NCBI GenBank assembly: GCA_026120035.1 | Contig: JALRME010000003.1 | Location: 1,116,001 to 1,180,000 of the forward strand | Reading direction: 5' to 3' | From: Coleophoma eucalyptorum | Lineage: Eukaryota; Ascomycota; Leotiomycetes; Helotiales; Dermateaceae | DNA length: 64,000 nucleotides | Part shown: piece by piece, positions 20,252 through 22,690 of the stretch | How the letters are laid out: each line of letters begins with the position of its first letter | Position numbering within the stretch: the stretch's first letter is position 1 | Notes under the pieces: model-generated | Seen by the model: the letters and a program-made list of their open reading frames with translations, nothing else | What the model was told of the DNA's origin: nothing | The model's database searches: none | Translations under genes and position numbers: made by a program

Positions 20252-20378
20252 CTCCGCTAGGAAGGCTTGAACTTCCAACCTCTCGATTAACAGTCGAACT
20301 GTTTTGAATTAGTTTGTGAATACTGATGAATTGATTACTTTGAATGCTTACCGCGCTAGCCAATTGCGCCATAGCGGA
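20252..20378 (-). tRNA. tRNA-Asn(GTT), copy A, with a 53-nt GT-AG insert at 26/27
   Basis: Complete tRNA on the minus strand. Exon 1 is 20378..20352 and exon 2 is 20298..20252; joined they give 74 nt. Acceptor stem TCCGCTA/TAGCGGA is perfect, the D-stem is GCGC/GCGC, the anticodon stem TTCGA/TCGAG has one T-G pair, the loop CTGTTAA carries anticodon GTT, and the T-arm is GGAAG-TTCAAGC-CTTCC. Discriminator G73 suits Asn. The A box (around the TGGCGCAATTGG segment) and B box (GTTCAAGCC) are both intact. The insert 20351..20299 begins GTAAGC, has CTAATTCA near its end and finishes CAG, exactly like a spliceosomal intron. No intron is present at 37/38. Two T runs just downstream can end Pol III transcription. 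Confidence 0.88.
20299..20351 (-). other. Spliceosomal-type insert in tRNA-Asn copy A
   Basis: A 53-nt insert lies between G26 and T27, read on the minus strand: GTAAGC at the start, CTAATTCA about 16 nt before the end, CAG at the end. Removing it restores GCGCG followed by TTCGACTG, as in uninterrupted eukaryotic tRNA-Asn. It is not at the position cut by the standard tRNA endonuclease. Confidence 0.75.
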
Positions 20379-21337
20379 TTGGATTTGAACATGTTAGACC
20401 ATCTGAACCAATGATCTGTTCTTTTTGTTTCTCAAGTTGTTATCTCAGGTTATATCCGGTAGGTTGAAGTAAGGTCATAGACAGGTTTTAGAAATGCTTG
20501 AGCACGTGTGTAAGAATAAGACATGGCTTGCCACTTGGCAGACGACAAAGAGTGCTGTTCAAAGGGAGAAAATGTTGAGGCTTTTCTTTTTTTCTAGAAG
20601 CTCTAGTCTATGAGAGAAATATCTGGGTAATCGATGTCCACACTCGTTTACTCCCCCCCCCCCCCTCCAACGGTCCCTCGACATATCAGAAATATTTCTT
20701 GGTACTAGGCAACTCTCAGCTCTCCCCTCTGCCTGAAGTTGCTTACATCCAATGGGATTTTTTTCTTATGCCTTGCGATAATCTAGGTCTTCTGAACTCT
20801 ATATTATCTTACAGTGAAATGGTGATACACTACAATGTCTGTCAAGAAACAAGATTGAAGGTAATTGGTATAAATAGTTCCGGGTTATCAGCTAGAAAGG
20901 AGGAGAATATTAAGTTTGCACCAGACAAATTAGATTTGACGATATTATACTATTTCCGCATGCCTAGGACAATATTGAACCAACAGTACTTCGATCTAGT
21001 GCCAATGCCAAATCTGTTGCTATGAATTATTGTCTACACAACTCTACCTCGCTTCCGTTTCTGTTGTCGATGCCCGCTGAAACAATTGCAACATGCTGAG
21101 CAACCACTCTGCCAACATTGATGAAAGGAAGAAAAAGGGATAAAAAAGGTTGGTCTTCTTCCTATGACTAAGGACCTGTTACCTCTGAAAAGCAGTTCAG
21201 GTATCTCACTGGTAAGCCCAAACAAACAAAGGCTTCATTCAATAAGGTAGGATGGTGATGGGCCGTGTTCGGCAAAAATAATGTCCGGGCAGGACGGGAA
21301 CAGGGCACATCCCGCTTAATGCAGCACCACTCCCACC
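20379..21337. other. Intergenic between the two tRNA-Asn genes
   Basis: AT-rich and without a credible gene. A run of about 14 C lies near 20654-20667. It could be decayed repeat sequence, but no element is recognisable. Confidence 0.45.
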
Positions 21338-21354
21338 AAAAAAAACGCAAAAAA
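21338..21354 (-). terminator. Pol III T-run terminators of tRNA-Asn copy B
   Basis: Minus-strand T6 (21354..21349) and T8 (21345..21338) lie 13 nt and 22 nt past the discriminator base of tRNA-Asn copy B. Confidence 0.75.
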
Positions 21355-21403
21355 TTTAGGAGATGAACTCTCCCGGGTGGGCTCGAACCACCAACCTCTC
21401 GAT

Positions 21404-21414
21404 TGCATACTGAG
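21404..21414 (-). other. Canonical 37/38 tRNA intron in copy B
   Basis: An 11-nt insert lies one base 3' of the anticodon, the standard position recognised by the eukaryotic tRNA splicing endonuclease. It is absent from copy A. Confidence 0.75.
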
Positions 21415-21425
21415 TAACAGTCGAA

Positions 21426-21479
21426 CTGGATAATGAATTAGATTTGATTCCTTGAGCGAAGATGTTGAGGATTACATAC
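21426..21479 (-). other. Spliceosomal-type insert in tRNA-Asn copy B
   Basis: A 54-nt insert at 26/27 with GTATGT donor, CTAATTCA branch-like motif and CCAG acceptor. Outside the ends and the branch motif it is largely unlike the copy A insert, as expected of an old intron at a shared position. Confidence 0.75.
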
Positions 21480-21506
21480 CGCGCTAGCCAATTGCGCCAC
21501 GGGAGA

Positions 21507-22690
21507 CAAGCTTGTTAACCAAGCTGTTTTTGATGCTGGATTCCTTGTTTCAATATATGTACTAACAACAAATCTGTGCACACAGCGCGGCGAGATTCTC
21601 ATCAAAGCTTCTGCAACAGAAAATAGCCGGTGGGTAAAATGATACCTCTTACTAGAATCAAACAAGTCCCCTTTATCAGGTTAGCCTATTATGTTCCCTT
21701 TGATCTAATCTTCTTTCATTTCATCTTATTAACCCTGTGACCTCTCATTGCTTCTGCACAAAAGAAATCCAAAATGAAATACCTTTGTAGTTCTAAGAGA
21801 GAGCTGTTCAGTTCCATGTATTGTGGCGGAGCATACTCATGTACGAAAAGAAAAAGCATATATATTTTCTTTTTGAAGCGCTATAATAGTTTGGGGTTGT
21901 ATATATCAAGGGGAAAAAAACAATTGTCATGTGGGAGGTTTGAACACATCTGAAGAAATACGACCGAAACCTATATGCGCAAAAGCACTGGACTCTTCCT
22001 TGATGCTTAGTGAAGTGCAAAAATCCATCGACCCTGTTCAAGAAATTGAATATATTTTTCACATTACTATTGGAAGTCTGGGAAAAATAGAACACAAGAC
22101 CAAAGGCATTCGCAATACTTGGCCGTTCATTATGCGGATGCTTGCTCATTTATTTATTTGAAAACGAGCCCCCTCTGGTGCCAACAAGTAAATAGTTGGC
22201 CTCATCCGATGTGTCGTTTTAATATTTGAAGAAAGTTATTTCATGTACTTTAGTATCACCGTCTTGAACTAGGACGGCAGAATCCGCCTTTTACCTAACA
22301 AGGTCATGAAATTCAGTATCAAAAATGTTACACGGAAACAAGTCTACGACAAAAGATATTTAAAGATAGTGTACTACTGATGACATATTTGACAAGTAAG
22401 CTGTATTTCGAAAACAAGGAAAATTGAATGCTATTGTCCTAGGTGCTAAGCCCTATATTCTCTCGTTATCTCCTAGAAACATCCTTGAACTTGTGACCAT
22501 AATTATAGATGAGCAAATTTGACACAAAAGTTCTAGATGCTAATCGTATATTGTTTGTCTAAATCCATCATGGGATGGTAAGTGTTTTTTGGGGGATCTT
22601 AGGTGGTGAAGCAGGAGTAAGTCATTTTAGCCTCGCACTAGTTTAGCTCTCCCACAACACTATTTGAACCCATTCCTATCCATCGATATT
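21507..22690. other. AT-rich intergenic stretch
   Basis: No gene recognised. Composition is clearly more AT-rich than the gene-bearing parts and stops are dense in all frames. It may be a decayed repeat, but no terminal repeats or coding relics are visible. Confidence 0.45.

Follow-up and report, generated by a model that had tools for sequence, protein, structure and literature searches.

Spliceosomal-type introns in nuclear tRNA genes of Coleophoma eucalyptorum, including all tRNA-Asn genes found

We analyzed a 64-kb window (contig JALRME010000003.1, positions 1,116,001 to 1,180,000) of the 45.3-Mb genome of the fungus Coleophoma eucalyptorum; the genome-wide counts given here cover this one genome. 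A tRNA-Asn(GUU) gene in the window, gene A, is interrupted by an ordinary tRNA intron and by a 54-nt insert with the signals of a messenger RNA (mRNA) intron. Among the loci examined, seven tRNA genes of three isoacceptor families carried such inserts at three insertion positions (26/27, 9/10, and 7/8). The phenomenon is broader than the first-pass annotation, which described gene A, had suggested, and it includes a second gene in the window. The named protein nearest to the product of one window gene came from Coleophoma cylindrospora (95%), followed by Phlyctema vagabunda (87%), both members of the Dermateaceae (Helotiales), in keeping with a helotialean fungus. Judging from the sequences, we give spliceosomal removal of these inserts from the tRNA precursors a probability of about 0.87.

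Gene A (21368..21506, minus strand, as are all its parts) was 139 nt long. It consisted of exon 1 (tRNA bases 1–26, 27 nt; 21480..21506), the 54-nt spliceosomal-type intron at 26/27 (21426..21479), exon 2 (bases 27–37, 11 nt, with the anticodon GTT; 21415..21425), a canonical tRNA intron of 11 nt at 37/38, one base 3' of the anticodon (21404..21414), and exon 3 (bases 38–73, 36 nt; 21368..21403). Without both inserts it was a 74-nt tRNA-Asn(GTT) in which each of the 21 stem pairs was standard, and both this and the place and signals of the two inserts agreed with the first-pass annotation. The 54-nt insert read GTATGT...CTAATTCATTATCCAG, held CTAATTCA in its interior and ended in CCAG. Its donor GTATGT was located at 21474..21479, its branch-like CTAAT at 21437..21441 (with the branch A 12 nt before the end of the intron), and its acceptor CAG at 21426..21428. 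The insert border could be slid by one base, GT..AG being one of two frames. What we take from the consensus to be the A box, TGGCGCAATTGG (21488..21499), lay intact upstream of the insert by eye, and the presumed B box, GGTTCGAGCCC, was found at 21379..21389. Two T runs (6 and 8) on the 3' side (21338..21354) resembled an RNA polymerase III (Pol III) terminator.

The second tRNA-Asn(GUU) gene of the window, gene B (20252..20378, minus strand), had a 53-nt spliceosomal-type intron, GTAAGC...CTAAT...ACAG (20299..20351, minus strand), at 26/27 and no 37/38 intron. Neither gene was reported in the window by the Rfam tRNA model, and unspliced gene A was not reported by ARAGORN either. Once the 54-nt insert had been cut out, ARAGORN reported Asn(GTT). 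An Ala(GGC) reading of the cut gene, from the ARAGORN mode with anticodon-loop introns, was rejected. Ser(ACT) and Asn(ATT) folds on the unspliced window (anticodon-loop introns of 5–200 nt) were also rejected because cutting the insert yields a full cloverleaf. We then scanned the window by excising each donor-branch-acceptor candidate and running ARAGORN to see whether a tRNA on the same strand spanned the junction. The 73 candidates gave two tRNA genes, A and B, and none of the 513 candidates from six first-order-random windows gave a tRNA across the cut. Our own covariance model, which had both genes among its 16 training rows, scored them at 67.7 (A) and 73.4 bits (B).

Five nuclear tRNA-Asn genes were found in the genome: gene A (C35:1137368-1137506), gene B on the same contig, and one each on contigs C4, C32, and C46. 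A 53–54-nt insert at 26/27 was present in all five. An 11-nt insert at 37/38 was present in two (gene A and C4) and lacking in the other three. The first-pass annotation had raised the possibility of intron-less tRNA-Asn(GTT) genes elsewhere; none was among the five nuclear genes from the genome pattern search. Patterns were used for this census because a BLAST-type search with the mature tRNA recovered only two of the five genes. The pattern (anticodon loop plus T loop) had C32-T33 and the T loop fixed and allowed 37/38 introns of up to ~29 nt. It gave 33 matches compared to 52 in a reversed control, and the matches therefore needed sorting; they included five nuclear Asn, one mitochondrial Asn, two Met, and one Arg gene. 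The covariance model, run over the 30 matches with a locus, revealed no further nuclear Asn gene, and the remaining three (C90) were judged on the matched letters only. For the cut C4 gene, ARAGORN gave '???'/Ala(GGC), and Asn(GTT) was read from the paralogues. A block TGGTTCAGATGG...TTCAAATCCAA stood directly 5' of three Asn genes (L076; L079, window ~20379-20420; and L083), and at L083 it contained a B-box-like GGTTCAAATCC.

Inserts of the same build were found in two other tRNA types, within a tRNA set that included the first 100 of 159 B-box sites and is not a full census of the genome. A tRNA-Lys(UUU) gene on C11 had a 54-nt insert, GTAAGC...TACTAAC...CAG, between bases 9/10, and a tRNA-Leu gene on C9 had a 57-nt insert, GTAAGT...CTAAC...TAG, at 7/8 together with a 37/38 intron. 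The anticodon of the latter was read as UAG from paralogues; ARAGORN called the cut gene Leu(TAA). The ARAGORN labels for the cut C4 and C9 genes differ because the 37/38 introns were placed differently. Both types had paralogues in which the insertion site was empty: a Lys(UUU) gene on C9 was continuous across 9/10 (GCCCGGCTG-GCACAATTGG), as were one Leu(UAG) gene on C57 and a pair of Leu(CAG) genes on C23 across 7/8 (GGGAGTC-TGGCCGAG). Only the GT-AG cut restored the Leu empty site. GT-AG was one of three slides for Lys, and one of two possible cuts in both Asn genes tested.

The covariance model gave 82 matches from 82 loci, one of them ending at a locus edge. An insert of at least 50 nt before the anticodon was present in six of the 82. 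The C9 Leu gene is the seventh; the model matched it only from base 8, and its insert was seen by excision. Four Ser/Leu rows with shifts of 6–17 nt were taken as misplaced 37/38 introns. At five loci with Phe genes the model gave zero matches and therefore misses some tRNAs. These five tRNA-Phe genes and one tRNA-Trp gene had, by eye, only 37/38 inserts. The Phe genes were found with one of 14 tRNA probes; the other 13 had no match. The tRNA-Trp gene came from a pattern with 19 matches (12 with loci). A pattern for initiator Met tRNA had zero matches genome-wide, which an insert, an unusual T arm or a wrong pattern may explain. A D-arm-plus-donor motif had no matches in viral or in bacterial/archaeal contigs.

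The seven inserts shared length and signals. All were 53–57 nt long with CTAAC/T/G, and the branch A lay 10–12 nt from the end. Donors were GTAAGC/T or GTATGT, and the branch was CTAAY in six of seven. Such donors and the CTAAY branch are the usual mRNA-like motifs of fungi. Among the five Asn inserts, which had two donor versions (GTATGT and GTAAGC), pairwise identity was 55% in the interior, compared to 87% over the donor hexamer, 92% over the branch pentamer and 100% over the final three bases; these values are not independent because the five inserts are related by descent. With GT-AG ends, a fungal-type donor and branch, and signals conserved over the interior, the inserts appear to be U2-type introns. 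In the window itself, an intron of the diphthine-ammonia ligase gene, GTAAGA...CTAATGCAATCAG, was close to the tRNA inserts by eye.

A length of 54 nt is far short of a group I catalytic core. An Rfam search of window positions 21301-21600 at E up to 10 returned no family match, group I introns included. Fungal rRNA genes have been proposed to contain very short putative group I introns, of 56–81 nt (PMC3160393), and the inserts could in principle be remnants of another mobile element, such as a degenerate group I intron or a short transposon, with an unknown excision route. We give this explanation hardly any credence, as it has to contend with the occurrence of GT-AG borders in the U6 gene as well as at three tRNA sites, a fungal-type branch 10–12 nt upstream, and the empty Rfam result.

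The genes that carry the inserts had properties expected of functional tRNA genes. With a complete cloverleaf, a GTT anticodon and a downstream T run, the five Asn genes are nuclear tRNA-Asn genes. With the inserts removed from the sequence, 105 of 105 pair cells were standard across three distinct mature sequences, and six pairs, in the acceptor and T stems, were changed on both sides. Sliding the partner columns by 1–3 lowered pairing to 29–53%. Pairing and covariation of the Asn alignment were matched by 0 of 500 shuffles and both-side changes by 15 of 500; one of the five covariation measures, further pair types, did not stand out (7 vs. 7.2 in shuffles; reached by 362 of 500). Predicted folds were uninformative and carry no argument here: z-scores of four precursors ranged between -0.46 and -1.36, and in the five Asn sequences with the 26/27 insert cut out (three of 74 nt, two still with the 11-nt insert) the fold of lowest energy was not the cloverleaf. 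T runs of at least 5 began no more than 21 nt downstream of all seven insert-bearing genes. These properties bear on the idea that the interrupted genes are decaying or silent and that insert-free genes supply the cytosol with its tRNAs for Asn, Lys(UUU), and Leu(UAG). Insert-free paralogues do exist for Lys(UUU) and Leu(UAG), and the Asn pattern search was not exhaustive. For Asn, however, the insert is in five of the five genes found; their stems are intact and show compensatory changes, and T runs follow them, whereas decay would break pairs; moreover, the splice signals are better conserved than the insert interior. We therefore regard silent or decaying genes as a very improbable explanation.

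Several observations weigh against removal by the spliceosome. The first-pass annotation had equated the insert signals with those of the protein-gene introns of the window. Of two such introns read by eye, the ligase one was much like the inserts, and one in a decarboxylase gene, with the donor GTAAGT, lacked a clear CTRAY branch close to its 3' end. The exon bases 5' of the donors were GCG, CTG, and GTC rather than the usual AG, and the branch of the C46 Asn gene, CTAAG, deviates from the consensus. The search for insert-free Asn genes was limited to the patterns with their fixed C32-T33, fixed T loop and short 37/38 introns. Among six comparison genes, four had a T run within 10 nt, a Phe gene had one at 40 and a Thr gene had none in 45 nt, and T runs are therefore no sharp test. 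Finally, a score for the bulge-helix-bulge (BHB) fold was low both for the inserts and for the 37/38 introns of gene A and C4, which formed 1–3 of 4 central pairs.

The BHB score is relevant to another explanation, in which the tRNA splicing endonuclease would cut the inserts as ectopic introns, in the manner of archaea, nucleomorphs or the red alga Cyanidioschyzon merolae. The first-pass annotation had named a BHB fold at the insert borders as a sign of this enzyme. None was formed in the seven genes: 0–2 of the 4 pairs of the central helix were present in every case, as in 85% of random sequences. The score counted the 4-bp central helix in its strict form, and given the low values of the 37/38 introns it excludes archaeal-type sites better than those of the eukaryotic endonuclease. 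The three systems named do possess multiple and ectopic tRNA introns (PMC4090602), and the endonuclease must be active in this fungus, as many of its tRNA genes have 37/38 introns. Nevertheless, cutting by the endonuclease leaves the GT-AG ends and the conservation of donor and branch unexplained, and the same insert build occurs in U6, which is no known substrate of that enzyme. We consider it very unlikely. For the spliceosomal interpretation of the first-pass annotation, the signals, the empty-site paralogues, the lack of an insert-free gene among the five nuclear tRNA-Asn genes found, the T runs and the U6 intron provide support at the level of sequence. The BHB result counts among these, with the reserve that the 37/38 introns score low as well.

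If the spliceosome does remove the inserts, the following course can be proposed. Working nuclear tRNA genes would have acquired U2-type spliceosomal introns, and since the Lys and Leu copies have empty-site paralogues, such gains may be ongoing. Pol III would transcribe the genes from their A and B boxes; with box limits that we assume from the consensus, the A box of the Lys gene is interrupted by its insert at 9/10, and the Leu insert lies ahead of the A box. The 53–57-nt insert would be excised in the nucleus as a lariat, after which the tRNA would fold and then be exported. The 37/38 introns of the Asn and Leu pre-tRNAs are most likely removed by the tRNA endonuclease. Endonuclease and ligase would act after the spliceosome, because the eukaryotic tRNA endonuclease measures from the folded tRNA body, which the insert interrupts. 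As five of the five genes found are split by an mRNA-type intron, the essential tRNA-Asn probably depends on the spliceosome, and sometimes on two splicing machines. We find it likely, with some reserve, that the whole set of propositions holds together: a cytosolic tRNA-Asn wholly dependent on the spliceosome, some pre-tRNAs obligate for two machines, ongoing gains, and translation of AAY codons coupled to splicing.

Textbook accounts keep tRNA splicing apart from the spliceosome. So does a 2026 review (PMC13149111). A tRNA family in which all known genes are spliceosome-dependent would, if true, break this separation and demonstrate that Pol III tRNA transcripts are able to enter the spliceosome. 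Translation of all AAY codons would then be coupled to the capacity for pre-mRNA splicing. The natural pairs of genes with and without an intron offer material for the study of spliceosomal intron gain. A warning also follows for annotation, as tRNA finders miss such genes: neither of the two window genes turned up with the Rfam model.

Other features of the tRNA set were observed. Only 12 of the 82 model matches were no longer than 74 nt, including the one ending at a locus edge. Longer matches mostly reflected, by eye, 37/38 introns (e.g., L014, L024, L042, L096, L105, L118, L123, L130, and L138). The apparent 37/38 introns included tRNA types Gly, Asp, Glu, and His, in which they are uncommon in fungi. 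Mitochondrial-like Ala and Phe tRNA copies were present on a second contig (L027, G000:C50:145760-145935), which may represent mitochondrial DNA copied into the nuclear genome or a further contig of the mitochondrion. Adjoining tRNA pairs were found at three loci: L019 (C10) had two Met genes, L090 (C23) had two for Leu(CAG), and at L036 (C46) Ile(AAU) was next to a second tRNA match that was cut off.

The closest known counterparts are introns in other structured RNA genes. One of five U6 matches exceeded the Rfam cut-off (L173, G000:C33:149716-149814), and this gene was split by a 54-nt mRNA-type intron, GTAAGT...CTAAC...ACAG, with a branch distance of 11 nt, between GATAC and AGAGA, which we take to be U6 exon sequence. 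Fungal U6 introns, as in Schizosaccharomyces pombe and others, are of the mRNA type, and the U6 gene of this genome likewise has one. They have reportedly been treated by Tani and Ohshima and by Canzler and others, and their origin has been sought in accidental reverse splicing within the spliceosome. U6 is a component of the spliceosome, whereas tRNA is not, and for tRNA a second splicing system may be required as well. According to a 2017 paper, U3 and U6 are the only small structured RNAs known as often interrupted, which leaves tRNA genes off the list (PMC5832005). Fungal U3 snoRNA genes resemble the interrupted tRNA genes in being structured non-coding RNA genes with normal spliceosomal introns; the tRNA genes differ in having an internal promoter, three insert positions, and paralogues with and without the insert.

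Canonical 37/38 tRNA introns accompany the insert in the Leu(UAG) gene and in two Asn genes, gene A and that on C4, and the 53–57-nt inserts differ from them in place, length, signals and predicted enzyme. Introns outside 37/38, sometimes beside a canonical one, are described for archaea, nucleomorphs and Cyanidioschyzon merolae in two papers (PMC4090602, PMC9602550). The first of these, a 2014 review of tRNA introns, calls non-canonical eukaryotic tRNA introns rare, naming nucleomorphs and C. merolae; in this review, the ectopic introns of archaea and C. merolae rest on BHB-type folds, the nucleomorph route is called unknown, and the string 'spliceosom' does not occur (PMC4090602). The first-pass annotation had known of no described example of a Pol III transcript processed by two splicing systems. 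No report of a spliceosomal intron in a tRNA gene was among the titles and abstract openings listed in searches of the open-access literature, from which subscription papers and preprints are mostly missing. In contrast to the BHB-dependent ectopic introns of archaea and C. merolae, the inserts described here have no BHB and full mRNA-type signals. From their sequences, they would extend the mRNA-type introns of Pol III structured RNA genes to tRNA, with three of the seven genes also containing a tRNA-type intron.
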